Shown one piece after another: positions 8,647 to 39,104 of a DNA stretch of 39,356 bases (positions within the stretch are counted from its first letter, which is position 1; every line of letters starts with the position of its first letter). The position numbers and the translations under genes are program-made. Source of the stretch: a bacterium (GTDB taxonomy: Bacteria > JAHJDO01); contig JAUSPT010000031.1 in NCBI GenBank assembly GCA_030652805.1, forward strand, positions 1 to 39,356, in the 5' to 3' direction. The notes under the pieces were generated by a model, which did not search any database, was not told the origin of the DNA, and saw nothing but the letters and a program-made list of their open reading frames with translations.

Positions 8647-8654
8647 AGATTAAA

Positions 8655-10465: not shown

Positions 10466-10503
10466 AAAAAACATCCCCGAGATTATCGGGGATGTTTTTT
10501 TTG
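10466..10503 (+). terminator. Rho-independent terminator after the pseudopilin gene
   Basis: A 10-bp GC-rich stem ACATCCCCGA/TCGGGGATGT with loop GATTA is followed by eight T residues. An A-run on the 5' side extends the stem, so it may act in both directions. It begins about 20 bases after the stop codon. Confidence 0.92.
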
Positions 10504-10550
10504 CTTTAATTCCTGATTATCAGTATAATAAACAACGATATGGAGAAGTA

Positions 10551-10687: not shown

Positions 10688-10729
10688 TCAACGGAATTTC
10701 TATTAAGAATATTCCAACAGGAGAGAAAT

Positions 10730-19733: not shown

Positions 19734-20477
19734 ATGAACAAGAAAGATAGTAACGCAAAGATTGCTCTGATTATTGGTGGAAGCCGTGGTATAGGACGGG
19801 CGATAGCTCTGCGTCTTGCTAGGTCAGGATTTGATATATGGCTGACCTATAAAAGCAACCATGCTGCTGCTAAGAGGGTAAAAGAAGAGGTAGAGAAAAT
19901 AGGAAGAGCATGCGATGCTCTCTCTTTTGACGTTTCCAACTATAATGAGACCAAAGCTGCTCTGGAAAAAAGGCTGGACGCTCACACTCCCTACATAGTT
20001 GTATATAACGCAGGCATTACCAGAGACAATCTTTTGGTATGGATGACAAAGGAAGAATGGGATACGGTACTCTCTACAAATCTGGATGGGTTTTATAATG
20101 TAATGCACTTTGTTTTATTCCCAATGCTGCGGGAAAAACAGGGAGGACGCATTGTTGTTATATCTTCAGCTTCCGGACAGGTTGGCCGTGCAGGTCAGGC
20201 AAACTATTCTGCTTCAAAAGCAGGATTAATCGGCGCTGCTAAGGCATTAGCACTGGAGGTTGGCAGGAAGAATATTCTTGTTAATGTTGTTGCTCCGGGT
20301 GTTATTGAAACAGATATGATTGAAAATCTTCCTAAAGATAAGATCCTTCCGCTTATTCCATTACAGAGGTTTGGGAATCCTGATGACGTTGCATCAGTAG
20401 TGAACTTTTTATGCACAGAAAAGCATATGTATATTCATGGTCAGGTCATTGGTATTAACGGTGGCCTGGCTCTCTAA
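19734..20477 (+). CDS. fabG: 3-oxoacyl-ACP reductase (FabG/ApeQ-type ketoreductase)
   Basis: This is a 247-residue classical short-chain dehydrogenase. It has the NADPH-binding GGSRGIG (15-21), NAG at 92-94, and catalytic Ser145, Tyr158 and Lys162, ending with the family's GQVIGINGG. It reduces beta-ketoacyl-ACP during chain extension. In aryl-polyene clusters the equivalent is ApeQ. It is the first gene of a tightly packed run ending at 27325, so it is probably dedicated to this pathway rather than to housekeeping fatty acid synthesis. The ATG lacks a clear ribosome binding site and lies close to the predicted transcription start. Confidence 0.93.
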   Translation: MNKKDSNAKIALIIGGSRGIGRAIALRLARSGFDIWLTYKSNHAAAKRVKEEVEKIGRACDALSFDVSNYNETKAALEKRLDAHTPYIVVYNAGITRDNLLVWMTKEEWDTVLSTNLDGFYNVMHFVLFPMLREKQGGRIVVISSASGQVGRAGQANYSASKAGLIGAAKALALEVGRKNILVNVVAPGVIETDMIENLPKDKILPLIPLQRFGNPDDVASVVNFLCTEKHMYIHGQVIGINGGLAL

Positions 20478-21992: not shown

Positions 21993-23224
21993 AACGGGTA
22001 GTAATAACGGGTGTTGGAGCTGTTTCTCCTTTAGGCAATGACGTTTCTGCTCTTACTGCGGGAATTGAACAAAGGAAAAGCGCTGTTCGTTATATGGATG
22101 ATTGGAACCGGTATATCGGCCTGCGCAGTTTAGTTGCAGCACCTGCGGAAGTTAAAAATGAAAAATTGATACCGCGTCAGAACAGACGATCAATGGGAAG
22201 AATGAGTATTTTTGCAGTTCAGGCAGCGCAACAAGCTCTGTCAGACGCTGATATAGGCAAAGAGGCATTATCTACAGGAAGGATTGGATGTATTATTGGG
22301 TCAACTACAGGAAGCGCTCAAAGCATTAGCGAGACATTTGAAATTATGGTCCCAACAAAGGATCTAACTCAACTCAATTCAACAAAATTCTTTCAATGCA
22401 TTTCCCATACAGCAGCAATGAATGTATCTCAGTATCTGGGAATAACCGGTTGCGTTATGGCAACCTCTGCCGCGTGCGCATCTGCATTGCAAGCTATTGG
22501 AGCAGGTTGCGATCTGATCAGGTTAGGCAAACAAGATGCGCTACTATGCGGTGGTGCGGAAGAACTTCATCCAACTGTTACAGGATCTTTTGATATTCTC
22601 TTTGCAACATCATCAAACTATAATCAATCTCCTCATAAAACCCCGCGGCCTTTTGACGTAAAACGGGACGGTTTGGTATGTGGAGAAGGAAGCGGGATAC
22701 TTGTTCTGGAGGAGTATGAAAGGGCTGTAGCAAGAAAAGCGAAAATATATGCTGAAGTTATAGGATATCATACATGCGGAAATGGTGCTCATATCAGCCA
22801 GTCCAGCAGAGCTGGTATGGTTTCATGCATCAGTAATGCCTTAAGCAATGCGCATATTGAACCAAAAGATGTTGATTACATCAATGCTCATGCAACAGCA
22901 ACGGTCCAGGGCGACAAGGAAGAAGCTCAGGCAATAGGAGAGATATTCGGTAGTCATGTTCCAGTAAGTAGTTTGAAGGGATATATCGGACATACGCTCG
23001 GCGCATCAGGGGCATTGGAATTGATTGCTTCTTTGGTAATGATGGAAAAAGGATGCATATACCCTACTCTAAACCTTGAGAAAGTAGATCCGGATTGTGA
23101 GGGCATTTGTCATGTAATGAAACCATTAGGCAAAGAGATTAAAATTATGGTAAAAAATTGCTTCGCATTTGGCGGGATTAATGCAGCATTGGTGTGTAAA
23201 AGAGTGACTAATTCTAAAAAATAG
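21983..23224 (+). CDS. Beta-ketoacyl-ACP synthase II-type (FabF-like) ketosynthase
   Basis: This is a 413-residue condensing enzyme with an intact Cys-His-His triad: Cys165 in TSAACASA, His303 in NAHATATVQGD and His337 in KGYIGHTLGASG. The GVGAVSPLGND opening is typical. It would extend ACP-bound chains by two carbons from malonyl-ACP. Two ketosynthases exist in this cluster; this one is next to its ACP and resembles generic FabF/ApeR more than the ApeO/ApeC pair (inference from gene order). It overlaps the desaturase gene by 10 bases and is followed by the ACP at 12 bases. Confidence 0.93.
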   Translation: MQLKRVVITGVGAVSPLGNDVSALTAGIEQRKSAVRYMDDWNRYIGLRSLVAAPAEVKNEKLIPRQNRRSMGRMSIFAVQAAQQALSDADIGKEALSTGRIGCIIGSTTGSAQSISETFEIMVPTKDLTQLNSTKFFQCISHTAAMNVSQYLGITGCVMATSAACASALQAIGAGCDLIRLGKQDALLCGGAEELHPTVTGSFDILFATSSNYNQSPHKTPRPFDVKRDGLVCGEGSGILVLEEYERAVARKAKIYAEVIGYHTCGNGAHISQSSRAGMVSCISNALSNAHIEPKDVDYINAHATATVQGDKEEAQAIGEIFGSHVPVSSLKGYIGHTLGASGALELIASLVMMEKGCIYPTLNLEKVDPDCEGICHVMKPLGKEIKIMVKNCFAFGGINAALVCKRVTNSKK

Positions 23225-23236: not shown

Positions 23237-23494
23237 ATGGATAAGCAGGAAATTATAGATAAAATAAATCAGGTATTTGAGGAATCCTTTGAGATTGAAA
23301 AAGAGAAACTCTTACCGCAAGCGAATATTTTTGAAGATCTGGGCTTGGACAGTTTAGATGTTGTGGACCTGGTTGTTGCCTTGCAGCAGAAATTTGGCAT
23401 TAAAATACGCGATGACCAACGCCTCAGAAACATCAGGACACTTGATGATATTTACAAATTTGTTCTTACTTTAAGAGATGAAGAAAAAATGTAA
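23237..23494 (+). CDS. Acyl carrier protein
   Basis: This is an 85-residue four-helix acidic carrier. Ser39 in LGLDSLDVVDLV is the phosphopantetheine attachment site. The length is slightly above housekeeping AcpP. GGAGG is about 8 bases upstream. It is the only ACP visible in the cluster; well-studied aryl-polyene clusters have two. A 4'-phosphopantetheinyl transferase is not in the window. It abuts the acyltransferase gene with no gap (TAA-ATG). Confidence 0.94.
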   Translation: MDKQEIIDKINQVFEESFEIEKEKLLPQANIFEDLGLDSLDVVDLVVALQQKFGIKIRDDQRLRNIRTLDDIYKFVLTLRDEEKM

Positions 23495-24247
23495 ATGAAG
23501 ACCTTAAAGCTGATATATTTTAACATAGTGTTTTACACGCTGTTCTTATCATTCTCTATGTTTAGTATTCCCATTTTAAGTTTATCTGTTATTTTTCTTG
23601 GTTTGTTTTCATCTCGCCGCAATACTATGAAGCGGTTCCGCAGAGCAATCAATTGGTACGGCAATGTTATTATTCGGGTTATTCCGTTCCCTTTTGTGCG
23701 TTTCAAGTATAAAGATTATGCAAAGAATAAAGGCAGAGGTCCATATATTTTTGTTTGTAATCACCGCTCCAGCTCAGACCCATTCTTGATTGGATGTCTT
23801 CCCTATGAACTTATTCAGATTGTGAATACATGGCCATTTCGTCTTCCGGTGCTGGGGATATTTGCAAGGTGGGCGGGTTATTTGAATGTCAAGAGAATGC
23901 AGTTCAAGAAATTTTCTTATAAGACAATCGAATTACTCAGACAGGGAGTTTCCATTGTTGCATTTCCTGAAGGAACACGTTCCAGAAACAAAAAAATCGG
24001 GCAGTTTCACAGCTCAATCTTTCGCGTTGCCTTGCAAGCGCAATGTCCAATTGTACCTATATGTATTTCCGGGAATGAGAATATCCCTCCACGCGGATCA
24101 CTTCTCTTGCATCAGGGAATAATCAGACTGCACAAATTGCCAGGTCTCGAATGGGAACAGTACAAGGATTTAGGACCGTTTAAGCTTAAAAACAAAGTGC
24201 GTGATATAATAGCTTCGGAGCTTGCTGTTATGGAGGGTGGGGCATGA
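23495..24247 (+). CDS. PlsC-type lysophospholipid/glycerol acyltransferase
   Basis: This is a 250-residue membrane acyltransferase of the LPLAT superfamily. It has an N-terminal hydrophobic helix pair (about 12-40), the catalytic HX4D motif at His90-Asp95 in NHRSSSDP, and the FPEGTRSR phosphate-binding motif (157-164). It transfers an acyl chain from ACP or CoA to a glycerol-phosphate-type acceptor. In aryl-polyene clusters a similar enzyme links the polyene acid to a lipid anchor. The gene starts directly at the ACP stop and overlaps the ligase by four bases (ATGA). Confidence 0.9.
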   Translation: MKTLKLIYFNIVFYTLFLSFSMFSIPILSLSVIFLGLFSSRRNTMKRFRRAINWYGNVIIRVIPFPFVRFKYKDYAKNKGRGPYIFVCNHRSSSDPFLIGCLPYELIQIVNTWPFRLPVLGIFARWAGYLNVKRMQFKKFSYKTIELLRQGVSIVAFPEGTRSRNKKIGQFHSSIFRVALQAQCPIVPICISGNENIPPRGSLLLHQGIIRLHKLPGLEWEQYKDLGPFKLKNKVRDIIASELAVMEGGA

Positions 24248-25551
24248 GAGATTTATATCGTTATCGTGATATAGCGTTTAGTCCGCCGAAAGAAATCCGA
24301 GAGATTCAGGAAAGGCAATTACAGGAACACATTGCATACTGTATCAAACATTCTCCTTTTTACAGCAAAGCACTGAAGAATATCAAAGCTGAATGCAGTA
24401 ATATAACGATTGATCAGCTATCAAAACTTCCCTTTACTGAGAAGTCTGATATTGAGCAAAATAATGACGATTTTTGCGCAGTTACTTCTGATAAGATTGT
24501 TGATATTGTTTTATCTTCAGGAACAACGGGCAAACCGATCAGGATGATGTATACTAATTATGACTTAAAGCGGCTTGCCTATAATGAGGAAAGATCGTTT
24601 ACAGGATGCGGACTGACTTCCAATGATACGGTGTTATTAACCTGCACAATGGATCGCTGTTTCGTTGCAGGACTGGCGTATTTTCTTGGGATACGCAGTG
24701 TTGGCGCAGCAGCTATTAGAAACGGGCATAACAGTCTTGAGAGTCACCTGCAGATTATAAAACAAATGGAGCCAACAGCTCTTATCGGAGTTCCGAGTTT
24801 TCTGAGGAAACTGGGTTTGTACTTAAAGGAAAGTGGAATAGATCCTGATAAAACTGCTGTGTCCAAACTAATTTGTATTGGTGAACCGTTACGCGGAAAA
24901 AATCTTGAATTGTTAAAAGTAGGGGATGATTTGCAGAGCATATGGCAGGCACATGCTTTTTCCACATACGCTTCTTCTGAGATTGTAACTACATTCTGTG
25001 AATGTACTGCTCAGCAAGGAGGCCATTCCCTTCCTGATCTGGCAGTTGTAGAAATCATTGATAAAAACGGCACCGTTCTTCCTCCTGGTAATACAGGCGA
25101 AATCGTTATAACGCCAATGGCGGTAGAAGGAATGCCTCTGATACGGTTTAAGACAGGTGATGTAAGTTTCCTGATTGATGAGCAATGCTCTTGTGGGCGG
25201 TTTTCTCCCAGGCTGGGGCCGATTATGGGAAGGAAAAAACAAATGACGAAGATCAAAGGAACGACTCTGTATCCACAGGCAATATATTCTGTCTTAGAAG
25301 AGATTGAGGCAATAAATGACTATTATGTAACAGTATCCGGAGAAAGCGAACTTTCAGATATCATAGAAATCAATGTATCAGTTAATGATCCGTCATGCAC
25401 CGCAGATATGATACAGGATAAACTTCAGGCGCGTCTGAGAGTAAAACCTGAGATAATAATCGTTGATTCGGGAACCATTAAACAGAAGGTCTATGATCCA
25501 AAGTCGCGAAAGCCAATTCGCTTTATAGATAGGAGACAAACAAAACAGTGA
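24244..25551 (+). CDS. Phenylacetate-CoA ligase-like AMP-forming acyl/aryl ligase
   Basis: This is a 435-residue adenylate-forming enzyme of the PaaK type. The P-loop-like SSGTTGKP (91-98), the GVPSFLRKLG segment, Y-ASSE near residue 240, and FKTGDVS (about 300) with the IMGRKKQMTKIKGTTLYP hinge match this family. It activates a carboxylic acid as acyl-AMP, then thioesterifies it to CoA or an ACP. In APE clusters such a ligase (ApeH) loads the aromatic starter. Whether the starter here is aromatic cannot be told; no ammonia-lyase or chorismate lyase is nearby. Four-base overlaps on both sides indicate coupled translation. Confidence 0.88.
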   Translation: MRDLYRYRDIAFSPPKEIREIQERQLQEHIAYCIKHSPFYSKALKNIKAECSNITIDQLSKLPFTEKSDIEQNNDDFCAVTSDKIVDIVLSSGTTGKPIRMMYTNYDLKRLAYNEERSFTGCGLTSNDTVLLTCTMDRCFVAGLAYFLGIRSVGAAAIRNGHNSLESHLQIIKQMEPTALIGVPSFLRKLGLYLKESGIDPDKTAVSKLICIGEPLRGKNLELLKVGDDLQSIWQAHAFSTYASSEIVTTFCECTAQQGGHSLPDLAVVEIIDKNGTVLPPGNTGEIVITPMAVEGMPLIRFKTGDVSFLIDEQCSCGRFSPRLGPIMGRKKQMTKIKGTTLYPQAIYSVLEEIEAINDYYVTVSGESELSDIIEINVSVNDPSCTADMIQDKLQARLRVKPEIIIVDSGTIKQKVYDPKSRKPIRFIDRRQTKQ

Positions 25552-27017
25552 GTTGTCACACCCCAATACCAAATTTTGAATTTGCACGAGAGGAAATAGA
25601 AGATGCAGTACGCAATGGCAGGCTTCTATCTATGGAAATTGAACCCAGTCTGCGTTGTAATTTCCACTGTCCATATTGTTATATACCTGAGAATTCTTCT
25701 CTTGAAAACGAGTTGACTGTAGAGGAAATCTGCGATGTTATTTTACAGGCGCAGGATCTTGGAGCAAAAAAAATTATTATTCTCGGCGGAGAGCCGATGA
25801 TATATCCGCATATTATGGAAATAATTAAGTTTATCAGAACGCATCATCTTAATGTGGAGATGTTTACCAATGGTTCTAATATTACTGCTGATATAGCGAA
25901 ACAGCTTTTTGACTATGGAGTAAATGTGGTTCTAAAAATGAACACGCTTAATGAGCATACTCAGGATATACTCGCCGGGAAAAAAGGATCGTTCAAGATC
26001 ATTCAGGAAGCATTCCACAATCTAAAGCAGGCAAGACGGCCTTCCGGAGAAACATTTCTTGCAATCAGTACCGTTATATGCTCTCAGAATATTGATGAGC
26101 TGGTGGATATGTGGCAAAAGCTGAGGGATCAGAATATTATCCCATATTTTGAGATGATTACTCCGCAGGGAAATATTAGACAAAACGGATGGTTAAATAT
26201 TGAACCTCAAAAGCTGCATGATATTTTTTGTAAAATTGCCGAAATTGACCGTACTCACTATGGATACTTTTGGGAGCCTCAGCCTCCTCTGATAGGGAAT
26301 AGATGTCTGCGGCACCAGTTTTCATGTCTTGTTACTTCTCAAGGATATGTTACGCCGTGTGTTGGGGTAACTATACCGGTTGGAAGCATACGAAAGCAAA
26401 AGCTTCGAGATATTATAAAAGACAGTGAGGTCATTCAGGATCTTAGAAACTACCATGATACAATGAAGGCTCCTTGCCGTGAATGCGAAAAATCAAATGA
26501 ATGTTACGGATGCCGCGGAGCAGCATACCAGCTGACAGGCGATTATCTGGCTTCTGACCCTATGTGCTGGAAGAATGTTGATAAACAGGGTGAAATTGCC
26601 CGTTTACCGATTGCAGTTGAAGAACTAATTCCGCAGAAATCGCCAATGAGAGTCATTGATACACTTGTGAAAGTTGGTGAGCGTTCAGCAGATGTAACTG
26701 TGACATTGTCGAAAGATATGCTGTTTATTGACGAAAGCGGTTTGCTTGACGAGGCTGCGTATCTTGAAATGATAGCGCAGGCAATAGCATCACTAAGCGG
26801 ATTTAAACATATGGGTGCATCTAAACCGGCGCCGGGAGGATTCCTGCTTGGAGCGAAAAAGCTTGAGATATTAGGAAAAGCACATGTTGGAGACACATTA
26901 AATATATCATTTTATAAATATGCAAGGTATGGCGGTTTTGGCATTGTTAAAGGAACCGTATCGCGAGACAACCATGTGCTTGCCAGAGGAGAGGTAAAGA
27001 TCTGGCATGAGATATGA
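25548..27017 (+). CDS. Radical SAM/SPASM-like enzyme fused to an ApeP-like hotdog dehydratase domain
   Basis: This is a 489-residue two-domain protein starting at GTG (GTGA overlap with the ligase stop). Residues about 28-240 form a radical SAM domain: Cys37, Cys41 and Cys44 in CNFHCPYC, and GGEP at 80-83. A Cys-rich SPASM-like region follows (about 250-350: a CLRHQFSC segment, CVGV, and CRECEKSNECYGC). Residues 353-489 resemble ApeP, the FabZ-like dehydratase of aryl-polyene synthesis, with Glu407 in YLEMIAQA and the GGFLLGAKKLE segment. The catalytic His expected in the LPH-x-x-PM motif is Gln363 (IPQKSPM). This suggests either a non-dehydrating chain-binding domain or altered chemistry. 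The fusion would bring a radical enzyme to an ACP-bound chain (inference). Confidence 0.85.
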   Translation: MSCHTPIPNFEFAREEIEDAVRNGRLLSMEIEPSLRCNFHCPYCYIPENSSLENELTVEEICDVILQAQDLGAKKIIILGGEPMIYPHIMEIIKFIRTHHLNVEMFTNGSNITADIAKQLFDYGVNVVLKMNTLNEHTQDILAGKKGSFKIIQEAFHNLKQARRPSGETFLAISTVICSQNIDELVDMWQKLRDQNIIPYFEMITPQGNIRQNGWLNIEPQKLHDIFCKIAEIDRTHYGYFWEPQPPLIGNRCLRHQFSCLVTSQGYVTPCVGVTIPVGSIRKQKLRDIIKDSEVIQDLRNYHDTMKAPCRECEKSNECYGCRGAAYQLTGDYLASDPMCWKNVDKQGEIARLPIAVEELIPQKSPMRVIDTLVKVGERSADVTVTLSKDMLFIDESGLLDEAAYLEMIAQAIASLSGFKHMGASKPAPGGFLLGAKKLEILGKAHVGDTLNISFYKYARYGGFGIVKGTVSRDNHVLARGEVKIWHEI

Positions 27018-29465: not shown

Positions 29466-29557
29466 AAATATGATCAACAAAAACATCCCGTGTAAAATAT
29501 ATAAAATCCTAGTATAATTACAAATCAGGTTTTGAAATTATGCTTGGAGCAAATATG
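29459..29557 (+). promoter_or_regulatory. Promoter/leader repeat, copy C, in front of the LolA-like gene
   Basis: Bases 29459-29533 match copy B at 73 of 75 positions, including the -10 TATAAT (29513-29518). The spacing from the repeat end to the ATG is 21 bases in both copies, and the GGAG-CAAAT-ATG start of the LolA-like gene aligns with the CGAG-AAAAT-ATG mini-frame in copy B. This is probably the native copy from which the others derive. The -35 region (about GTGTAA) is weak. Confidence 0.65.
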
Positions 29558-30196
29558 AATAAAATCACAATAATACTAATCGCATTATGTATGTCTCTAT
29601 TGTCGCTTAACGGCTATGCTGAGCAGAGTGTGGAGGATGTGCTCAGTAAACTTGAAGAAAAAATGTCAGATATAAAAACTTTGAAAACTGGTTTTGTTCA
29701 GGAGAAAAAGCTGGCGATCTTTGATAGAGAGATTATTTTGAAGGGCAAGATATTTCTTAAAAAGCCGGATCTTTTTGCATGGCATACCGAAGAGCCGACA
29801 CGGTATTCTATGATTATAAGGGATGATGTTATTCTGCAGTGGGATGAAGATATAGACCAAGTTCAGAAGGTAAGTATGAAGGATAATCCTGCGTTTCAAA
29901 CCGTTGTCGGGCAAATGAGGAAATGGCTTTCAGGCATATATATGCCATTGTTGGAAGAATACAATATAACAGTACTCAAGCAAAACCCGGTTTCCCTTAA
30001 ATTCACGCCGCGCGAAAATACAATGGCTTATAATATTATCAACTATGTAAGGATTGTATTCAGAGAGGATGAACGCTATATCCACGAGATATACATAAAG
30101 GAGAAAACCGGCGATTCTACGCTTCTCAGGTTTAATGATACCATGCTGAATACTCCGATCGATGATGCGGCATGGGAGGTCAAACCGCGTGGCTGA
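29555..30196 (+). CDS. LolA-like outer-membrane carrier (ApeL-type)
   Basis: This is 213 residues from the ATG at 29555, chosen because GGAG lies five bases upstream and the product then begins with a signal peptide (MNKITIILIALCMSLLSLNG, cleaved near residue 22). The beta-rich body with LKTGFVQEKKLAIFDREI, a KPDLFAWHTEEP segment and MRKWLSG matches LolA-fold carriers present in aryl-polyene and flexirubin clusters. It likely ferries the lipidic product across the periplasm together with the MMPL protein. The next gene starts inside its last codons (GTGGCTGA). An upstream ATG at 29540 is less likely. Confidence 0.87.
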   Translation: MNKITIILIALCMSLLSLNGYAEQSVEDVLSKLEEKMSDIKTLKTGFVQEKKLAIFDREIILKGKIFLKKPDLFAWHTEEPTRYSMIIRDDVILQWDEDIDQVQKVSMKDNPAFQTVVGQMRKWLSGIYMPLLEEYNITVLKQNPVSLKFTPRENTMAYNIINYVRIVFREDERYIHEIYIKEKTGDSTLLRFNDTMLNTPIDDAAWEVKPRG

Positions 30197-32561
30197 TAAA
30201 CGGAAACGTCTTATATCCGGACTTGCGGCAAGCATAATCATTTTTGCAGCGATTGGTCTCAGGTTCATTTCTTTTGATAATAACATTGAACTAATGCTTC
30301 CTGCGAATCCTGAGATTCTTCGCAGTATGCGTTTTCTCAGAGACTCAAATCTTTCGGATAAGGTTGTTCTTTCTCTAAAACTGAAGTCGTCAGAACACAC
30401 AACACATGACCTTATTCAAGCTGTTGACCAATTAGAAAAGTCTTTAAAGCCGCCTCTGATAACAGATGTAATAAGCGGTGTTTCCAAAGCAGATCTAATG
30501 CAGGAGATGCATTTATTTATGAGGTATGTTCCGCAACTGCTCAACGAACATGACCTCTCCAAAATTGATAGACAGATAACCTCTGAAGGAGTAAAAACAA
30601 GTTTAAGCAGAGACTACCAGCAATTACTGACTCCGGGCAGTGGATTTGTAATGCCGTTTATTCGCTCTGATCCGCTCGGGATAAAATCCGGATTTCTCTC
30701 CAATATACAAAAACTTTCCAGTTCTTTAGGATATAAGGTTCAGATCAAAGATGGACATTTTATCAGCCAGAACGGCAGAAACGCTATGCTTATACTTAAA
30801 ACGCCTGTACGTCTTACTGATGGATTCGGCTCAAAAAACCTAATAGAGTATCTGCATAAACAGCTGAAGTCTCTGCCTGAGTTTATTTCGGCGGACATTA
30901 TTGCCGGGCATGTTCACACAGTCAGCAATGAGTATGTAATGAAAAAGGATATTCTCCTGACATTGACTATTGCCTCAGTTGCCTTTCTCTTATTATTCCT
31001 GTTCATATTCAGGGATATAAGGGCAATTCTTATCTTTCTTATACCTCTGATATCAGTTCTTGTTTCCATAAACCTCTCAGCTATTATTCTTGGAAAACTG
31101 TCATATTTTATTATTGGTATGGGAGCTGTTATTGCCGGCATTGCTATAGATTACGGGATTCACGTATATTTAGCTGTACGCACAGGAGCTGGCCGACCTG
31201 ATGCAGTCAAGAAAATAATAAAACCAGTAATAATTGCTGCATTTACTACAATAGGTGTTTTTGCTGCATTCTTCTTTTCCAGTGTTCAGGGGTATCATCA
31301 GCTCGCTCTTTTTTCAATCCTCAGTATTATTCTCTGCCTTGTCTGTGCCTTATTTGTCTTACCCTATCTTTTAACCGGGAAACACTACATGGAACTTCCT
31401 GCTATACTCAAACAAGGAAGTTCTATGCACTCGCAAGTTTTTGATCGGATATGTGTTGCTTGCTGGGGAGTGATTATAATTGCTGCAATAGCTCTATCGT
31501 GGCAGGTAGAATTTAATAGCGATATCAGTCAACTGGATGGAAGTAAATTTGAAGTTATACAGACTGAACAGGAGTTTCATAATGTGTGGGGAGGCGCGGA
31601 TAAACCAGCGATCCTTGTTACCTCAGGAGAAAATTTGGAAGAGGCGCTTCAGTGTAATGAGCGCATTTACACCGAAGCAGTAAATGAGGTGGGAGAAGAT
31701 AATTTTGCCCCAATGGGGTTTACAAGTTTTGCAGAATTGTGGCTGTCAAATCAAACACGAATAGCAAACTCTGCGCGCTGGAACAAGTTCTGGAGAGAAG
31801 GAAGAGAAGCAAAGTTGAAAGAGCTTCTCCAAGAGCATGGTCAGGCATATCATTTTTCCGATGATGCATTTTCCCCGTTTTTTAAAAATCTCTATACTGA
31901 AAAGGTTATTAAAAATACACCTGAGGGGCTTACTTTCTTTGACCAGTTAAAAGAACGATTTGTACTGAAGAAAGCAGATGAATATCAGGTGTTATCATTT
32001 TTTCCGGATAAGGATAAATGTGTTAAGACGCTGAGCGCAATAATCAGCCGTTATCCGAGGACATTCTTAGTATCCAGAAATGCTTTTTCCAGCATACTTT
32101 CTCAGGCAGTTTCTTCAGAAGTTATTTTTTTATCGGTAATTGCTGTGCTGTTAATTCTGATATTAACCTGTTTATTGCTAAGAAACATACGGCTAACTGT
32201 GCTTGCCCTGATTCCGGTTATCACAGGCATTCTATTGATATTAGGGATCATTCCTGTATTTGGATTATCTCTAAATGCTCCTTGTGTTATTGCCGGGATA
32301 ATTGTTATTGGTCTCTGCATTGACTATGGGATATTCATGGTTTATACTTGTGAATATAATTTAAAAACAGGAACGCGCATGGCAGTTTCATTGTCAGCTC
32401 TCACAACAGTTATTGGAGCAGGAGCTCTTTTATTTGCTCTGCATCCTGTATTGTTTTCTATTGGTTTAACACTTGTAATAGGAGTAGTGGGAGGGTATAT
32501 TTCAGCACTATTGGTTATTCCCTCCTTGTATAGATTATGGCAAAAACCAAAAAAGGCATAG
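30189..32561 (+). CDS. MMPL/RND-family exporter (ApeM-type)
   Basis: This is about 790 residues from GTG 30189, overlapping the LolA-like stop by eight bases, with GGAGG about nine bases upstream; a longer frame from 30162 is less likely. It has two halves, each with a large periplasmic loop and a bundle of five to six helices: the first near residues 250-400 with GMGAVIAGIAIDYGIHV, the second near 640-785 with AGIIVIGLCIDYGIFMV. The conserved Asp in each (DYG) fits RND proton relay residues. Such exporters in APE-type clusters move the polyene lipid out of the inner membrane. No membrane-fusion protein is seen. Confidence 0.9.
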   Translation: MADKRKRLISGLAASIIIFAAIGLRFISFDNNIELMLPANPEILRSMRFLRDSNLSDKVVLSLKLKSSEHTTHDLIQAVDQLEKSLKPPLITDVISGVSKADLMQEMHLFMRYVPQLLNEHDLSKIDRQITSEGVKTSLSRDYQQLLTPGSGFVMPFIRSDPLGIKSGFLSNIQKLSSSLGYKVQIKDGHFISQNGRNAMLILKTPVRLTDGFGSKNLIEYLHKQLKSLPEFISADIIAGHVHTVSNEYVMKKDILLTLTIASVAFLLLFLFIFRDIRAILIFLIPLISVLVSINLSAIILGKLSYFIIGMGAVIAGIAIDYGIHVYLAVRTGAGRPDAVKKIIKPVIIAAFTTIGVFAAFFFSSVQGYHQLALFSILSIILCLVCALFVLPYLLTGKHYMELPAILKQGSSMHSQVFDRICVACWGVIIIAAIALSWQVEFNSDISQLDGSKFEVIQTEQEFHNVWGGADKPAILVTSGENLEEALQCNERIYTEAVNEVGEDNFAPMGFTSFAELWLSNQTRIANSARWNKFWREGREAKLKELLQEHGQAYHFSDDAFSPFFKNLYTEKVIKNTPEGLTFFDQLKERFVLKKADEYQVLSFFPDKDKCVKTLSAIISRYPRTFLVSRNAFSSILSQAVSSEVIFLSVIAVLLILILTCLLLRNIRLTVLALIPVITGILLILGIIPVFGLSLNAPCVIAGIIVIGLCIDYGIFMVYTCEYNLKTGTRMAVSLSALTTVIGAGALLFALHPVLFSIGLTLVIGVVGGYISALLVIPSLYRLWQKPKKA

Positions 32562-33226
32562 CGTTATATTTGCTGCTCGCAGGGTTAGTTGGATTGTGCA
32601 GTACAGGATGCAGCAGTATTCCGTTTAAAAAGGTCCAATATGTCTCGGTCAGCAAAGTGCAGCCTACAGCAATTCGGGAGCAATTTGCCAGTACCCTTTC
32701 TCAGAAATTCCAGGTAATTAACACAATTGTTTTTCAGTATAGGCGGCATAAGTTCTCTGCTATTGGGTATACTGATATTGATTCTCTTCAAAAGCTTTTT
32801 AAAATTATCTGTCTTAATCATGCAGGTATTAAGTTATTTGAGTTAGCCGGAAATGATAATAGCGTTGAATGCAAGTTCGCTTTTGAAGGAGCTTCTTTTC
32901 CCGGCAATTTTGCCCAAGCAGTGGCAGATGATATCAGAAGAATTTATTTTGACTCTATTCCTGGTCCTGAAGCTAAAATATATAAAAAGAAAAAGAAGAT
33001 TATTTTCAGGCAGCCTTCAGAAACAGGTGTAATGGAATACATATTTGCCGGCACTGACAACCTGTTGGTTGAAAAACGGTGTTATAAAGGGTGGCGCAAA
33101 ATCTGGAGTGTTTTTTATTATGAGTACCGCAGAAAGAACGGAAAACTATATCCATCCGGCATTATGCTCAAACATCATAAATACAACTATCAGCTAACTG
33201 TGCGATTGAAGGAGATTCAAACATGA
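32537..33226 (+). CDS. DUF3261-like lipoprotein (ApeN-type)
   Basis: This is a 229-residue predicted lipoprotein. It has a Lys-rich N-terminus, a hydrophobic stretch (9-20) and Cys25 in CSTGCSS as the likely lipidation site (the lipobox is not perfect). The body is beta-strand-rich with a basic KKKKKII segment and a final YRRKNGKLYPSGIMLKHHKYNYQL part that fits DUF3261, a family found next to MMPL exporters in APE clusters. It is probably an outer-membrane component of product export. It overlaps the exporter gene by 25 bases and the next gene by four. Confidence 0.75.
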   Translation: MAKTKKGIALYLLLAGLVGLCSTGCSSIPFKKVQYVSVSKVQPTAIREQFASTLSQKFQVINTIVFQYRRHKFSAIGYTDIDSLQKLFKIICLNHAGIKLFELAGNDNSVECKFAFEGASFPGNFAQAVADDIRRIYFDSIPGPEAKIYKKKKKIIFRQPSETGVMEYIFAGTDNLLVEKRCYKGWRKIWSVFYYEYRRKNGKLYPSGIMLKHHKYNYQLTVRLKEIQT

Positions 33227-33615
33227 ATAGGCTTATGCAGGAGATCAAACAATGTATGTCTGATTTAGCTGAAACTAAAAAAGGGGAAGTAACTGCGCAC
33301 TTTCTTTTTCCATCAGAGTTCATTGGGTTTCAGGGGCATTTTCCAGACAAACCTGTTCTTCCGGGTGTTTGTAAAATACAGGCGGTTATAGTAATGCTTC
33401 AGGCATGGGAAAAGGAGGATGTCAGACTGAAGGAAATTGTTTCGGCAAAATTCTTTTCACCAGTTTCCCCCGAAGAAGAAATTGTTTTTAATTACAGGAA
33501 GCAAACAGAAAGCAACGGCGAAGCGCTCGTAAAAGCATCAGTAACCAGTAAAGATAAGAAAATTGCTGAACTGCAGCTGAGAGTAAGTGTTAAAAATGAA
33601 ACACAGGAGAACTAA
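33223..33615 (+). CDS. ApeI-like hotdog dehydratase (3-hydroxyacyl-ACP dehydratase)
   Basis: This is a 130-residue single hotdog domain. His39 in FQGHFPDKPVLPGV is the catalytic His of the FabA/FabZ/ApeI group. It would remove water from beta-hydroxyacyl-ACP to make the trans double bonds of a polyene. The second dehydratase-like domain of this cluster (C-terminus of the radical SAM fusion) lacks the catalytic His, so this protein may carry the activity for both (inference). It overlaps the lipoprotein gene by four bases. Confidence 0.88.
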   Translation: MNRLMQEIKQCMSDLAETKKGEVTAHFLFPSEFIGFQGHFPDKPVLPGVCKIQAVIVMLQAWEKEDVRLKEIVSAKFFSPVSPEEEIVFNYRKQTESNGEALVKASVTSKDKKIAELQLRVSVKNETQEN

Positions 33616-33616
33616 T

Positions 33617-34765
33617 ATGCATGCGCCAGAAGCAGTTGTTGTTGCCTGTGATCTCATAACTCCTTACGGCTTGGGCATTGATGCGTGCTGGAATGGCCTT
33701 TTATCCGGGAAGACTGCAATAAATCCATTAGACCGTTTTGATACAGATGTATTTCAAACAAAAAAAGCGGCTACAATCGCTGAACTCAAGACTGGTCAAA
33801 GTGATTCTCTGGTAATGCAGATGCTGAAGCCGTTACTAAAAAAAGCATCTGCTATTATTCCAAAAGACGCTCTCTTAATTTTAGCAACCACAACAGGCGA
33901 AATAGATATTCTGGAGAAACAGGTTCTTAATGCCAAAGATAATGCGGACGAAAGCGCGCTTGGCTGTTTGTTAAGCAAGGTGCAATGCTTGAGCGGGATA
34001 AGGTCGCCCGGGATTATTGTGTCTGCGGCATGTACTTCTTCAAGCAGCGCAATTGCACAGGCATCAGCAATGATCCGTAGTAAAGAGCGTGACTGTGTGC
34101 TGGTAGTTGCCTGTGATATTGTAAGTGAATTTGTTTTTGCCGGATTCTCTTCTCTGATGGCATTAGATAAAGATACGGCGAGGCCCTTTGATAAAAACAG
34201 AAGCGGTCTAAGTCTTGGCGAAGCAGCAGGATTTGTTCTGGTTATGAGTAAAGAAAGAGCTATTCAGGAAGAAAGGTCTATTATTGGAGAAATAGCCGGT
34301 TGGGGACTGACAAATGATGCTAATCATATGACCGGTCCGTCCAGAGATGGAAGCGGACTGGCACTGGCTATGCGTAAAGCCCTGCGATCAGCAGATATTT
34401 CTGAGGATACTGTTGGATGCATAGCAGCGCATGGCACAGGAACTGTGTATAACGACGCTATGGAAATGAAGGCGTTTAAATCTGTTTTTGCTTCAGGAAC
34501 TCTTCCAACCTACTCTATTAAAGGAGGAATAGGCCATACAATGGGAGCGGCAGGTCTGGTGGAGACAATTGTGGCATTGCGGTCATTAAGAGAAAAACTT
34601 GTTCCTCCTACAGTTAATCTGCGTATCGCTGATGATGAAGCTGAGGGCTGGGTCTCCACTGAGCCGGACTCATTTGACAACCCTGTAACCGTATCTATCA
34701 ACGCTGGATTTGGCGGAGTGAATTCTGCATTGGTATTGAAAAAATTGGATGAGCAGCAGTTATGA
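33617..34765 (+). CDS. Beta-ketoacyl-ACP synthase (ApeO-like)
   Basis: This is 382 residues from ATG 33617, chosen over 33587 because AGGAG lies seven bases upstream and the latter overlaps the dehydratase. The triad is Cys139 in VSAACTSS, His272 in AAHGTGTVYND and His307 in KGGIGHTMGAAG. Its N-terminal part is shorter than FabF. Position next to a chain-length-factor-like gene and an ApeI-like dehydratase matches ApeO of aryl-polyene clusters. It is probably the main chain-extending ketosynthase, working with the 190-residue partner downstream. Confidence 0.92.
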   Translation: MHAPEAVVVACDLITPYGLGIDACWNGLLSGKTAINPLDRFDTDVFQTKKAATIAELKTGQSDSLVMQMLKPLLKKASAIIPKDALLILATTTGEIDILEKQVLNAKDNADESALGCLLSKVQCLSGIRSPGIIVSAACTSSSSAIAQASAMIRSKERDCVLVVACDIVSEFVFAGFSSLMALDKDTARPFDKNRSGLSLGEAAGFVLVMSKERAIQEERSIIGEIAGWGLTNDANHMTGPSRDGSGLALAMRKALRSADISEDTVGCIAAHGTGTVYNDAMEMKAFKSVFASGTLPTYSIKGGIGHTMGAAGLVETIVALRSLREKLVPPTVNLRIADDEAEGWVSTEPDSFDNPVTVSINAGFGGVNSALVLKKLDEQQL

Positions 34766-35334
34766 TTATTTCAGGTATTGGCTGGATTAGTAAAGGAAAA
34801 TATGGGTGTGTGAAAAAGGCAGTATGCACAGATTATACTGATATAAAATCTCTGCATTCAAAGCTGCAGAATGAATCAATATTTTTGTATCCTGTGAAGA
34901 ATTTTGGAAGATTTGACATGACTTCAAAAATGTCTTGCTGTGCAGGCGCTCTGGCACTGCATGATGCAGGAGTAAAGTATTCTGAAAAGCATAAACAGGA
35001 TATTGGAATTATCAGCACAAATACTGATGGATGCTTGAAGTCTAATCTGAATTATTTCAGGGATTATGTGCAGACAGGCAGAAAACTCGCGCGTGGTAAT
35101 CTTTTTATCTATACACTTCCGTCAAGTCCTCTGGCAGAAGCATCAATTCACTTTGGGTTTCAGGGCCCATTGCTGTATATCATGTTTCCACAAAAACATA
35201 TTCCGTCTTTACTTCAATATGCAGAAGGCATAATATCCCGCAAAGAAGCATCAACAATACTGGCTATGAAAGTTGATGAAAAGAAGGCTGTATGTTTTGT
35301 TCTGAGAAGGGAAGAGGACACTTCTTCCAAATAA
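34762..35334 (+). CDS. Ketosynthase-like chain-length-factor partner (ApeC-like)
   Basis: This is a 190-residue protein resembling only the N-terminal ketosynthase half. It has a GIGWISKGKYG opening, an FGRFDMTSKMSC segment, a CAGALALHDAG helix and IGIISTNTDG. The usual nucleophile Cys region is replaced (FQGPLLYIMFP), and there are no catalytic histidines. This pattern fits the inactive ApeC/XanB-type partner that forms a heterodimer with ApeO and limits chain length. It is shorter than the roughly 240 residues I expect for ApeC. The four-base overlap (ATGA) with the ketosynthase gene supports complex formation. Confidence 0.72.
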   Translation: MIISGIGWISKGKYGCVKKAVCTDYTDIKSLHSKLQNESIFLYPVKNFGRFDMTSKMSCCAGALALHDAGVKYSEKHKQDIGIISTNTDGCLKSNLNYFRDYVQTGRKLARGNLFIYTLPSSPLAEASIHFGFQGPLLYIMFPQKHIPSLLQYAEGIISRKEASTILAMKVDEKKAVCFVLRREEDTSSK

Positions 35335-35336: not shown

Positions 35337-36584
35337 ATGAAAATAAAACTGATATATCCCACATGGCCGAAACTAATGGATCAGACGGAATTTAATCTGC
35401 CTCCTCATGGTCCTGTGTGTTTTGCTGCTGCGCTGAGTGATGATATTGAAATTTCCTTCTGTGATGAGAATGTTGAAGAGCTTGATTTTAATGAAGATGC
35501 AGACTTGATTGTGCTTTCAGTTATGCTGACATGCCAGATGCCCCGCGCATGGGAAATTAGCGATTGGTATCGAGCTCATGGTAAGAAGGTGGTGTTTGGC
35601 GGCATTGCAACAATGCTTCATGCAGAAGAAACAATGCAACATGCAGATGCTGTGTTTTTAGGAGAAGCGGAAGGTAAGTTTAATAAGGTTATTTATGATT
35701 TCAAAAATGGTCATCTTGAAAAAATGTATGACTTTTTTCATGATTTTCCGGATATGAATCTGGTTAAAACTGCAAAACGCAGTATTCTTAAGCGTGAATT
35801 ATATAATTTTCGCGGTGTGCAGATGGTTGATCTGGTGCATGCGTCGCGAGGGTGCAAGTTTAATTGTTTTCCATGCTGTACGCCGTATTTGGGAGGGCGC
35901 AAATTCAGGCCGCGTCCTATTGATGCAGTATTGATGGAGCTGGAAAGCATTGATAATAACCGCTTGTTTTTTGTTGATAATTCCCTGGCGCAGGACGATG
36001 AATGGGAAAAGGAACTGTTTAGGGCAATTGCTCCGTTAAAAAAGAAATGGATATCTCATCCAATAAAAGACGATGATGAGATACTGGATTTAGCTGCTAA
36101 AGCAGGATGTTGGTATGTATATCAGGCAATAATAGATACCTCAGATCATATCCGCAGAAGAGTTAAGCGGCTGCAGGAACATGGCATTGGAGTTGAAGGA
36201 ACTATTCTTCTGGGGCTGGATTATCATGATGAAGATTATATAAAGCGATTAGTTGATTTTCTTCTTGAGATAAATCTTGACCTTGCCGAATTTACTATCC
36301 TTACTCCATTTCCTCATGCGCCGATCAGAGCTCAGCTGGAAAAAGAAAATAGAATCCTTCATAATAACTGGATTCAGTACACGACAGGAGAAGTTGTATT
36401 TAAACCGGCAAAAATGACTGTAGACTCATTGCAAAACATGTATCACTATGCGTGGGAAACATTTTACTCTGACTGCAGCAGGGAAATAAAGATGGCAAAA
36501 CTGTTTCTTAAAGTTATTGAAAAAGAAAAAAAAGATGGGACTTATAAAAGAGCCAGATTGAATGCTAATCGGGCGTGGTCATGA
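35337..36584 (+). CDS. Cobalamin-type radical SAM enzyme (HpnP/class B methylase-like), 1
   Basis: This is 415 residues from ATG 35337; a longer frame from 35292 overlaps the previous gene. The N-terminal B12-binding-like domain (1-140) has the typical VVFGGIATM and FLGEAEGKF turns but no D-x-H-x-x-G motif, so cobalamin would be bound without the His ligand, if at all. Cys173, Cys177 and Cys180 in CKFNCFPC form the radical SAM cluster site, followed by an extra Cys181. The C-terminal FTILTPFPHAPI and FKPAKMTVDSL segments are shared with lipid-modifying enzymes such as hopanoid methylases. It could alkylate or cyclise the polyene lipid; substrate unknown. Confidence 0.83.
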   Translation: MKIKLIYPTWPKLMDQTEFNLPPHGPVCFAAALSDDIEISFCDENVEELDFNEDADLIVLSVMLTCQMPRAWEISDWYRAHGKKVVFGGIATMLHAEETMQHADAVFLGEAEGKFNKVIYDFKNGHLEKMYDFFHDFPDMNLVKTAKRSILKRELYNFRGVQMVDLVHASRGCKFNCFPCCTPYLGGRKFRPRPIDAVLMELESIDNNRLFFVDNSLAQDDEWEKELFRAIAPLKKKWISHPIKDDDEILDLAAKAGCWYVYQAIIDTSDHIRRRVKRLQEHGIGVEGTILLGLDYHDEDYIKRLVDFLLEINLDLAEFTILTPFPHAPIRAQLEKENRILHNNWIQYTTGEVVFKPAKMTVDSLQNMYHYAWETFYSDCSREIKMAKLFLKVIEKEKKDGTYKRARLNANRAWS

Positions 36585-37933
36585 AAATCCTACTGATTGC
36601 TTCTAATATTGCCAGTACTCCGTATCCTATTTATCCGCTTGGCTTGAGTATGGTTGCAGCTACTTTGAGTAACGCTGGGCATAAAGTATATCAGTTTGAT
36701 TTTCTTCAGAGTAATAAGTCCATGGAGGCACTTTGCAGGGTAATCAAAGACAGTACTCCTGACATTATAGGTGTATCAATTCGCAATATAGATAATGTGA
36801 ACTTCTTAAGTGAACAGCGCTATATTGATGTTGCGAGGGATATTGTGAAAATGATCCGCACACAAACCAGTGTGCCAGTAGTGCTGGGCGGCGCAGGATT
36901 TTCTATTATGCCAGAAGCAATCCTGCGTGAGGTTGGTGCTGATTATGGAATTGTTGGAGAAGGAGAGGCTCTAATGCTTGAATTTGTTGCAAATGCTGAA
37001 AAAGGCGTTTATCCAAAAGAACGCTGCATACAGCCCAGCTCCAGCCTAAAAGGCGAAGAAATTCCCTCTGCATATTATGATCCAAAGATTATGGAGTTTT
37101 ATCTGAAAAGAGGGAACATTGGATCTGTGCAGACAAAGCGGGGATGTACACATAAATGCGTGTACTGCTCGTATCCTATTTTGGAAGGCACAAGTATTCG
37201 CTGCAGGGATCCGAAGGCAGTGGTTGATGATATTCAGTTGCTGACTGATACGCACAAGGCAAAGTATATCTTTTTTACTGATTCGGTTTTTAATGATGAC
37301 CAAAAACATTATCTGAACGTAGTTCGTGAAATGGCAAAAAGAGGGGTGTCTATCCCTTGGACTGCGTTTTTCAAACCGGAAAAGCTTGATGATGAAATTA
37401 TAGCGCTGATGAAACAGACCGGGCTGAAAGCAGCAGAGCTTGGATCTGATGCGCCCGCTGATACAACACTTCGTAGACTTGGCAAGTCATTTCTGTTCAG
37501 GGACATTATTGAGTGTAATAACTCCTTTGTCCGCGCTAATATTGCCACAGCGCATTATTATATGTTTGGTTGTCCGGGGGAGACACGGGAAACAGTGCTC
37601 GAGGGAATAGAAAATATCAAAAGTCTGAAAAAGGCAGTATCTTTTATCTTTATGGGGATACGGATTATTCCCGGCACGGACCTTGAGCGCATAGCGCTTA
37701 AAGAAGGGATTCTTTCCAATGGTCAGGATTTACTGAAATCTGTTTATTATATTTCTCCAAACATTGATAAACAGTGGCTAAAGGAGACATTAACTAAGGC
37801 ATTCTCCGGCATTAAACATTGTATTTTCCCTCCTGATGCAGGGGACACTACTTTACAGTTTCTTCACAAACTTGGATATTCAGGCTCTATGTGGGATATG
37901 CTTATTACCGGGAATAAAAAGCCAGGTGAATAA
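36581..37933 (+). CDS. Cobalamin-type radical SAM enzyme, 2
   Basis: This is 450 residues from ATG 36581, sharing ATGA with the previous stop; a GTG at 36575 is an alternative. The B12-binding-like domain (1-150) has YPLGLSMVAATLSNAGH, VVLGGAGFSIMPE and VGEGEAL, again without D-x-H-x-x-G. Cys189, Cys193 and Cys196 in CTHKCVYC bind the [4Fe-4S] cluster. The remainder is an Elp3-like barrel with MFGCPGETRETV. It is clearly different from its neighbour, so two distinct radical steps are likely. Possible roles are methylation, cyclisation or bond formation on the cluster's lipid. Confidence 0.85.
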   Translation: MKILLIASNIASTPYPIYPLGLSMVAATLSNAGHKVYQFDFLQSNKSMEALCRVIKDSTPDIIGVSIRNIDNVNFLSEQRYIDVARDIVKMIRTQTSVPVVLGGAGFSIMPEAILREVGADYGIVGEGEALMLEFVANAEKGVYPKERCIQPSSSLKGEEIPSAYYDPKIMEFYLKRGNIGSVQTKRGCTHKCVYCSYPILEGTSIRCRDPKAVVDDIQLLTDTHKAKYIFFTDSVFNDDQKHYLNVVREMAKRGVSIPWTAFFKPEKLDDEIIALMKQTGLKAAELGSDAPADTTLRRLGKSFLFRDIIECNNSFVRANIATAHYYMFGCPGETRETVLEGIENIKSLKKAVSFIFMGIRIIPGTDLERIALKEGILSNGQDLLKSVYYISPNIDKQWLKETLTKAFSGIKHCIFPPDAGDTTLQFLHKLGYSGSMWDMLITGNKKPGE

Positions 37934-39104
37934 TAACTCTTTCTCTACAGATCATATCTGGTGTGTTATCCCTGTATTTAATAATAAGGATACTGTGAAA
38001 AATGTTGCTTTATCCTGTAGAGATTATTTGAAGAATATAGTTGTTGTTGATGACGGAAGCACTGATACTAATATATCCGCCTTGTTTGCTGACACTGGAG
38101 TTATTGTGCTTAAACATGAGAAAAATCTTGGCAAAGGCAGAGCAATTCTTACTGCGTTAGGGTATATTCAAGCTCAAGGCGGACGCTTTATGATTACGAT
38201 TGATGCAGACGGACAACACTATCCGCAGGATTTGGAGAAGTTCATTCCTTTGCTCCAGAAAGATGAAACAAGTATTGTTATTGGGTGCAGAAAACTTCAT
38301 GGGAAACATGTTCCACGTAAAAGCCATTTTGGGAAAAAGGTTGCTAATTTCTGGCTGCGCGTAGAAACAGGAGTTTCAATTGAGGATTGCCAGAGCGGCT
38401 TTCGCTCGTATCCAGTGCGGTACCTTTCACAAATGAAATTAACAGGCTCTCACTATGATTTTGAAACTGAAGTTCTGGCAAGGGCAGTATGGGCAGGGCT
38501 ATATTTAAAGATGATTGAGGTTGATGCATGGTATCCTGAGCCTCAATCCCGCATTTCGCATTTCAAGCCATTTGTAGACAATATGCGTATTTCCTGTATG
38601 CATACCAGATTAGTAGGCAGATGTCTCTTACCGCTTCCACATCGAAAACTAGTTTTTGAAGCCGCTAAAAAAATCGACCTGAGCATGCTTCGCCATCCTG
38701 TTAAATTATTGAAGATGCTGCTAAAAGAGAATGCAAGTTCCTCTGGATTAGCTGTATCAGCAGGAGTTGGGATCTTTCTTGCTGTACTGCCGCTTATCTC
38801 AATTCATACACTGGTGATTATTTATGTGACAGCGCGCTTGCATTTGAACAAGGCGATGGCTATTACCATACAGAATTTATGCATACCGCCTTTCGTTCCT
38901 GCAGTCTGCATTGAACTGGGATATTATATGCGGCACGGCCGCTGGTTAACCAATGTCTCCATGGATGTTATTTTTAAGCAATTCCCCGACAGGTTGTTGG
39001 AATGGCTACTTGGCTCTCTTATAGTTGCGCCTGTATTGGCAATTGTTATAGGAATAAGTGTGTTTTTCACAGCAAAAACATTGCAGAATAGAACCGATAA
39101 TTAG
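37926..39104 (+). CDS. Family 2 glycosyltransferase fused to a DUF2062 membrane domain
   Basis: This is 392 residues from GTG 37926, overlapping the previous stop by eight bases; a longer frame from 37836 would be mostly inside the radical SAM gene. The GT2 domain (about 10-230) has VVVDDGSTD (Asp42/43), a DAD motif at 93-95 and the DCQSGFRSY segment. A DUF2062 domain (about 260-390) with several membrane helices follows. The GT2-DUF2062 architecture recurs in aryl-polyene and flexirubin clusters. It probably glycosylates or tailors a lipid-linked intermediate at the inner membrane. It is the last gene of the cluster. Confidence 0.87.
   Translation: MNNNSFSTDHIWCVIPVFNNKDTVKNVALSCRDYLKNIVVVDDGSTDTNISALFADTGVIVLKHEKNLGKGRAILTALGYIQAQGGRFMITIDADGQHYPQDLEKFIPLLQKDETSIVIGCRKLHGKHVPRKSHFGKKVANFWLRVETGVSIEDCQSGFRSYPVRYLSQMKLTGSHYDFETEVLARAVWAGLYLKMIEVDAWYPEPQSRISHFKPFVDNMRISCMHTRLVGRCLLPLPHRKLVFEAAKKIDLSMLRHPVKLLKMLLKENASSSGLAVSAGVGIFLAVLPLISIHTLVIIYVTARLHLNKAMAITIQNLCIPPFVPAVCIELGYYMRHGRWLTNVSMDVIFKQFPDRLLEWLLGSLIVAPVLAIVIGISVFFTAKTLQNRTDN

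Follow-up and report, generated by a model that had tools for sequence, protein, structure and literature searches.

The window, the whole stretch of 39,356 nucleotides that was analysed, contains a locus resembling an aryl polyene cluster and, within it, two radical SAM genes in tandem, referred to here as rSAM-A and rSAM-B. The features recognised are all on the forward strand and are listed with the evidence for each.

19734..20477, +, FabG-like ketoreductase (sequence; syntenic homologs)
20490..21992, +, CrtI-like flavin oxidoreductase (Pfam)
21983..23224, +, KAS1, FabF-like ketosynthase (sequence; synteny)
23237..23494, +, acyl carrier protein, ACP (sequence, LGLDSLD motif)
23495..24247, +, PlsC-type acyltransferase (Pfam)
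24244..25551, +, PaaK-like AMP-binding ligase (Pfam)
25548..27017, +, third radical SAM protein, rSAM/SPASM with a weak C-terminal ApeP-like hotdog match (Pfam; homologs in the same cluster)
29540..30196, +, LolA-like carrier (Pfam; NF053544 114.6 bits against a cut-off of 125)
30162..32561, +, RND/MMPL transporter (Pfam)
32537..33226, +, DUF3261 (ApeN/LolB-like) lipoprotein, weak match (Pfam)
33223..33615, +, FabA/ApeI-like hotdog dehydratase (Pfam)
33587..34765, +, KAS2 ketosynthase (Cys-His-His readable as AACTSS, HGTGT and GHTMG)
34762..35334, +, short KAS-N-like protein, putative CLF/ApeC-like partner (active-site Cys absent; fabF N-terminal half 18 bits; synteny)
35337..36584, +, rSAM-A, 415 aa from ATG 35337, B12-binding-like domain and radical SAM domain, no curated family
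36581..36584, +, start/stop overlap ATGA (rSAM-A stop TGA 36582-36584, rSAM-B start ATG 36581-36583)
36581..37933, +, rSAM-B, 450 aa from ATG 36581, TIGR04072 (rSAM_ladder_B12)
37878..39104, +, GT2 and DUF2062 (Pfam)

In related loci, the usual gene order is FabG, CrtI-like, KAS, ACP, PlsC, PaaK-like, rSAM/SPASM-hotdog, LolA, RND and DUF3261, followed by hotdog, thioesterase, KAS, CLF-like, rSAM-A, rSAM-B, GT2, LpxL-like acyltransferase, ACP and KAS. The thioesterase is absent from the window and from two genomes of the same genus, and PaaK is not in view in some related contigs. An earlier note on this DNA had placed the pair at the end of a polyene cluster. However, this is an effect of the contig end. 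The contig stops after the GT2 gene. In relatives the locus runs on past rSAM-B, with further genes that include GT2, the LpxL-like acyltransferase, ACP, KAS and a CLF-like gene, and the pair therefore lies within the cluster.

The locus shares with aryl polyene clusters the ACPs, KAS, a CLF-like KAS, the ketoreductase, hotdog dehydratases, the thioesterase (in relatives), PlsC, GT2 and acyl transferases, LolA, RND and DUF3261, and the published gene table for ape clusters covers most of its functions (PMC8253772). The set of KAS/CLF, ketoreductase, dehydratase and ACP together with LolA, RND and DUF3261 is thus present, with a weak assignment for the CLF. The 190 aa KAS-N-like protein may be this CLF, and its matches in the PDB are all weak or irrelevant. 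What the locus adds to an aryl polyene cluster is three radical SAM proteins, the CrtI-like oxidoreductase and the PaaK-like ligase. No ApeB-type methyltransferase, 4-hydroxybenzoate-specific gene or enoyl reductase was recognised in the locus. On the question of a ligase for an aromatic starter (4-hydroxybenzoate), the locus has the PaaK-like ligase, which may or may not be specific for such a starter. The window contains no cobalamin riboswitch, and one sub-threshold match lies elsewhere in the genome.

The two genes had been described from the sequence as divergent, translationally coupled, B12-type radical SAM genes with intact CxxxCxxC motifs and lacking DxHxxG, and each of these points holds. 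Both open reading frames were found at the coordinates listed and share the 4-base ATGA overlap. Some 27 of the 43 related loci show a similar spacing, in which the BLAST match starts 3 bases before the rSAM-A stop ends. An alternative in-frame ATG for rSAM-A at 35292 falls inside the preceding gene, and for rSAM-B a GTG at 36575 lies two codons 5' of ATG 36581. The Pfam scores for rSAM-B are 76.3 bits for B12-binding and 50.0 bits for Radical_SAM. For rSAM-A, B12-binding is weak (34.1 bits, cut-off 32.1) and Radical_SAM, at 28.5 bits, is just under the cut-off of 29.5, rising to 31.7 with frame neighbours. Both proteins have the class B arrangement, namely an N-terminal B12-binding domain and a radical SAM domain with a complete CxxxCxxC, weakly so for rSAM-A. 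Of 60 A-type sequences, 59 lack DxHxxG in their first 150 aa, as do all 43 B-type sequences. The two proteins are only about 26 % identical over 190 aa and are different B12-domain radical SAM proteins. As they lie on two different branches, the same kind of chemistry should not be assumed for both. The earlier count of three radical SAM proteins in the cluster also stands, the third being the SPASM protein with the weak hotdog match.

A genome scan for rSAM-A, using a five-sequence alignment as query, recovered 60 loci, comprising 57 orthologs (48-93 % identity) and three distant relatives. The orthologs are on 57 contigs, nearly all from MAGs, whose labels may be wrong. They are labelled as Desulfobacterales and other Deltaproteobacteria (Desulfobacterota), Omnitrophota, Nitrospirae (Nitrospirota), Verrucomicrobia, Planctomycetota, Lentisphaerae, Myxococcota and unnamed bacteria. 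rSAM-B is directly downstream of rSAM-A in 42 of the 57, most of these pairs being part of a locus of the aryl-polyene-like kind; eight contigs end first, and the other seven orthologs, mostly of the 48-51 % clade, are in different neighbourhoods. Where both genes are found they are adjacent in 42/43 loci. A TIGR04072 protein over the cut-off was found in 13 of 20 genomes examined, several of the divergent rSAM-A clade among them (three of the 20 are genomes of the distant relatives). The median identity to the window is 77 % for rSAM-A, 64 % for rSAM-B and 30-68 % for other neighbours. In each locus compared, rSAM-A is conserved more strongly than any other product, with the proviso that the KAS1 comparison mixes paralogs.

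rSAM-B belongs to TIGR04072 (644 bits against a cut-off of 360, residues 4-444 aligned to model positions 1-442). Lower NCBIfam scores were obtained with BzaD (207), the tryptophan C-methylase TIGR04428 (145, not reaching its cut-off of 500), HpnJ (72), BchE (71) and HpnR (63). BzaD is also a carbon methylase, acting on an aromatic ring. In profile searches of the PDB, the best match to rSAM-B was TsrM (E 1.1e-44, compared with 4.1e-20 for AprD4), and TsrM was also the top Foldseek match (TM 0.84, E 1.1e-29) to an AF2 model of pLDDT 86.2. The residues compared are as follows.

37145..37168, +, rSAM-B CxxxCxYC cluster motif (C189, C193, C196), kept in 32/32 aligned rows
36782..36784, +, rSAM-B Arg68, aligned with TsrM Arg69, invariant in 32/32 rows, anammox proteins included
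37286..37288, +, rSAM-B Val236, aligned with TsrM Glu273 (cluster ligand), V/I/L in 32/32 rows

TsrM (PDB 6WTE/6WTF) is the nearest solved structure to rSAM-B, which has the equivalent of Arg69 in an RNxD loop and the GG loop of the cobalamin domain. Arg69 of TsrM blocks or shields the lower face of the cobalt (PMC8992657, PMC13331322). However, the two are 23 % identical, and Glu273, a ligand of the TsrM cluster that prevents SAM from binding there, is replaced by Val, Ile or Leu. Retention of the Arg and loss of the Glu suggest that rSAM-B has a TsrM-type cobalt site combined with a cluster that is free to bind SAM. These residues support methyl transfer, short of proof. The similarity to TsrM spans the scaffold, not the substrate pocket.

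rSAM-A is claimed by no NCBIfam model, the best score being 60 bits to TIGR04013 (cut-off 251), and at 45 bits it is not a member of TIGR04072 (cut-off 360). The 49 members scanned all weakly match this same set of families. Two features set out below were examined in an alignment of 57 rows, made up of 49 orthologs and eight distant relatives.

35853..35879, +, rSAM-A motif C173-x3-C177-F-P-C180-C181, P179 and C181 each in 48/57 rows
35523..35525, +, rSAM-A Met63, candidate under-cobalt position (TsrM Arg69), Met in 55/57 rows, matched by hand alignment of the strand-3 loop

P179 and C181 are in nearly all of the orthologs, whereas at the motif the eight more distant sequences have CxFCS or CxYCS. 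CxxxC[FY]PCC is near-universal in orthologs and missing from the 31-36 % relatives. A proline here replaces the aromatic residue usual before the third cysteine. Met63 would also be compatible with a radical methylase like TokK, in which the residue under the cobalt is not a ligand. Because the match to the N-terminal B12 domain is weak, whether rSAM-A binds or uses cobalamin is uncertain.

The AF2 model of rSAM-A (pLDDT 90.6) has AprD4 as its best match in a structure comparison (TM 0.77), and AprD4 is also the best PDB profile match (8.8e-12). The methylases MgmA (9ccb) and CysS are among the further fold matches. AprD4 (PDB 6FD2) is thus the nearest solved protein by both measures, but it is only 16-18 % identical to rSAM-A, rSAM-A scores 34 with the AprD4 family model (cut-off 500) and the CxxxC[FY]PCC motif is a feature of rSAM-A. 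AprD4 is a radical SAM diol dehydratase, and at about 17 % identity its reaction may tell little about that of rSAM-A.

In two quick trees, the rSAM-A sequences group together (100), joined to their anammox relatives and apart from the TIGR04072 side, with branches at 99-100 SH-aLRT. These trees are sparse, with few reference enzymes (two or three HpnJ rows and none of HpnR or HpnP), long branches and no bootstrap. HpnJ falls on the rSAM-A side when the tree is midpoint-rooted, though the branch of one HpnJ row (L196) is too long to be plausible and the row is probably a misreading; HpnJ was the outgroup of the second tree. Despite the shared side, rSAM-A scores only 45 with the HpnJ family (cut-off 577.6). 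A search of 247 genomes from the phylum of L047 (labelled Desulfobacteraceae) and of 289 related genomes gave no protein at or above the BzaD cut-off, and the BzaD rows in the trees are consequently sub-cut-off relatives only.

The likeness to HpnR that had been considered earlier was not borne out, and a hopanoid-enzyme identity was rejected for both proteins (HpnR 24 and 63 bits for rSAM-A and rSAM-B, cut-off 650; HpnJ 45 and 72 bits, cut-off 577.6). The NCBIfam hits did not include any HpnP model, and the comparison with HpnP is likewise unsupported. Clustering with tRNA- or peptide-modifying enzymes, which the earlier note had named as counter-evidence, was not seen. MiaB/RimO and RiPP models score far below the lipid-family models and the context is fatty-acid-like. 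The proposal of class-B-type enzymes in lipid or acyl-ACP biosynthesis is well supported by the membership of rSAM-B in TIGR04072 and by strict synteny with KAS, ACP, ketoreductase and dehydratase genes in dozens of genomes.

TIGR04072 proteins also occur in anammox bacteria, and clusters of the Kuenenia type, which have been proposed as ladderane clusters, and that of Desulfotalea psychrophila resemble the present one in bringing together a TIGR04072 protein with rSAM/SPASM, PaaK-like, KAS, FabG, ACP, CrtI-like, MMPL and GT2 proteins (PMC2649909). In G166, an anammox-type chromosome of 4,406,153 bases, one locus includes GT2, CrtI-like, MMPL, ACP, FabG, TIGR04072, rSAM/SPASM, PaaK and KAS. 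It also holds an ORF of 66 residues, and the arrangement fits the published kuste3335-3352 cluster; the Kuenenia label leans on an HzsA length of 809 aa and on gene content. However, there are differences. In the Kuenenia-type cluster, rSAM-A proper is replaced by a 31-36 % relative lacking C[FY]PCC, the SPASM homolog is 368 aa with no hotdog, whereas the SPASM protein in the window carries one, and the gene order differs, the LolA/RND/DUF3261/hotdog/KAS/CLF block of the window being aryl-polyene-like.

Among 25 genomes with HzsA-like proteins (HZS-bearing genomes), five have a TIGR04072 protein over the cut-off, and in all five a relative of rSAM-A lies at a distance of 11-13 kb. The rSAM/SPASM partner was found in three of nine tested and is missing from G200, G295 and G326. 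These three genomes each consist of essentially a single contig, and their hzs operon is 81-86 % identical to that of G166. A separate TIGR04072-like paralog scoring 305-339 bits, below the cut-off, is in 13 of the 25, including G200, G295 and G326; its five rows in the tree make up a separate clade (100). Its spread is wider than that of the over-cut-off proteins, yet not universal. Ladderanes are known from four anammox genera, according to a reference cited in PMC12758564, expression of Kuenenia genes in Escherichia coli gave no new fatty acids (PMC4790861), and D. psychrophila, with its syntenic cluster, had no ladderanes, but C31:8 and C31:9 hydrocarbons (PMC2649909). The locus is not present across the ladderane-making anammox bacteria, provided that the tested genomes do make ladderanes, as is assumed here. 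Because it is absent from several near-complete anammox genomes, the Kuenenia-type locus is unlikely to be a ladderane synthase or indispensable for ladderanes. The earlier suggestion that closeness to ladderane-cluster proteins would indicate cyclisation does not carry over for the same reason, and the closest relatives for which a structure has been solved or a reaction named are TsrM and BzaD.

From the families, motifs, synteny and fold similarities observed, we infer a substrate, reactions, an order of steps and export. KAS/CLF, the ketoreductase and the hotdog dehydratases would build a polyunsaturated acyl chain on ACP, and the three radical SAM enzymes would modify the ACP-bound chain. 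PlsC, GT2 and the LpxL-like protein would attach it to a lipid or glycolipid anchor, and RND, LolA and DUF3261 would carry the product, probably an unusual polyunsaturated membrane lipid, to the outer membrane. The most likely role of rSAM-B is cobalamin-dependent methylation of an sp2 or activated chain carbon, in which Arg68 would keep the cobalt without a lower ligand and the cluster site would be open to SAM. For rSAM-A, the most likely role is 5'-deoxyadenosyl-radical C-H chemistry without methyl transfer, and candidate outcomes are ring closure, rearrangement or dehydration, on the pattern of HpnJ, BchE and AprD4. On present evidence we tentatively favour the pair as tailoring enzymes of an anaerobic aryl-polyene-like locus of the type II fatty-acid/polyketide kind, with rSAM-B a carbon methylase and rSAM-A responsible for non-methylating radical chemistry, though this falls somewhat short of an even chance. 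A bolder proposal, also tentative and short of an even chance, is that rSAM-A represents an uncharacterised radical SAM class, marked by CxxxC[FY]PCC and nearly always paired with TIGR04072 in the main clade. Across many phyla of uncultivated anaerobes, this class would act with rSAM-B and the SPASM-hotdog protein to make a polyene membrane lipid, methylated or cyclised, of a chemically new kind.

Other readings were weighed against this division of labour. Both enzymes could be ordinary class B methylases, putting at least two methyl branches on the polyene chain. Methylation is the commonest cobalamin radical SAM reaction (PMC13142503), rSAM-B is TsrM-like, and the fold matches of rSAM-A to MgmA and CysS would fit. 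However, the nearest relatives of rSAM-A in sequence, fold and tree, AprD4 and HpnJ, are not methylases and its B12-binding score is weak, making this reading doubtful. We consider it unlikely that one or both enzymes close C-C rings, whether cyclobutane or some other ring, on a polyunsaturated acyl-ACP, as in a ladderane-type or precursor pathway outside the anammox bacteria. The name of TIGR04072 comes from ladderane clusters, the homologs are co-located in the kuste3335-3352-like locus, rSAM-A is nearer to HpnJ in the midpoint-rooted tree and ladderane synthase proposals have been published (PMC2649909, PMC13142503). Set against these are the patchy occurrence of TIGR04072 and the SPASM partner in HZS-bearing genomes, the lack of C[FY]PCC in the rSAM-A-like protein of anammox loci, and the hydrocarbons, rather than ladderanes, of D. 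psychrophila. The evidence points to methylation plus other carbon chemistry and away from ladderane rings.

According to the line of Rattray and colleagues, the radical SAM enzymes would desaturate or isomerise the chain into a polyene anaerobically, with no carbons added or joined. This draws on the anaerobic PUFA hypothesis put forward for the clusters in Kuenenia and Desulfotalea (PMC2649909), and both the likeness of rSAM-A to the AprD4 dehydratase and the CrtI-like gene agree with it. But KAS, ketoreductase and dehydratase with no enoyl reductase already give a polyene, as in aryl polyenes, and the B12 domains and the TsrM-type cobalt site of rSAM-B are left unexplained. This is the reading to which we give least weight, and we regard it as improbable.

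This kind of cluster has been on record since 2009 (PMC2649909) and 'ladderane' clusters outside the anammox bacteria were reported in 2023 (PMC9902471). In the literature searched, no earlier description was found of two such genes as a pair, of the rSAM-A subfamily with its motif, of a TsrM-type cobalt site in rSAM-B or of the patchy anammox distribution. If the preferred reading, a methylase paired with a non-methylating enzyme, is true, a conserved locus type labelled 'ladderane' by pipelines in Desulfobacterota, Omnitrophota and others would make a different lipid, and the search for anammox ladderane genes should give the kuste3335-3352-type cluster less weight. rSAM-B offers a natural test of TsrM-type control of cobalt (by Arg) combined with an open cluster site. 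rSAM-A, as a compact and highly conserved family, suits structural work in a section of the cobalamin radical SAM group for which few structures are solved.

Orthologs of rSAM-A in its 48-51 % clade (L087, L088, L089 and L098, loci in other genomes) have no adjoining rSAM-B gene, and a TIGR04072 protein is encoded elsewhere in most of the genomes concerned. KAS genes lie close to the rSAM-A orthologs in several of these loci. In anammox-type genomes, a TIGR04072-like paralog that scores slightly under the curated cut-off was found at the following positions:

L177:9329-10756
L178:8760-10187
L179:8941-10392

This sub-cut-off form is present in 13 of the 25 HZS-bearing genomes, whereas the over-cut-off form is present in five. 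In the three loci listed, it is located outside the kuste3335-3352-type cluster and is followed by an ORF of 350-385 aa.

Most related loci have the rSAM/SPASM gene directly followed by LolA. In the window the cluster is broken up by two genes, one encoding a DUF3800 protein (28234-29283) and the other a protein resembling CutA (27014-27325). In L022, from the window's genus, genes for an RND pump of the AcrB type and for an efflux protein of the outer membrane (6685-11195) separate the KAS-N-like gene from rSAM-A, and L100 has an ORF of similar size (1071 aa) in the same position.

The downstream part of the cluster includes two conserved proteins that match nothing in Pfam, nor anything in NCBIfam at E 1e-5:

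L062:17839-19110, 423 aa
L062:16973-17581, 202 aa

Elsewhere in the window, one tRNA group adjoins Rnf-type electron transport genes:

3578-3826, minus strand, three tandem tRNA genes
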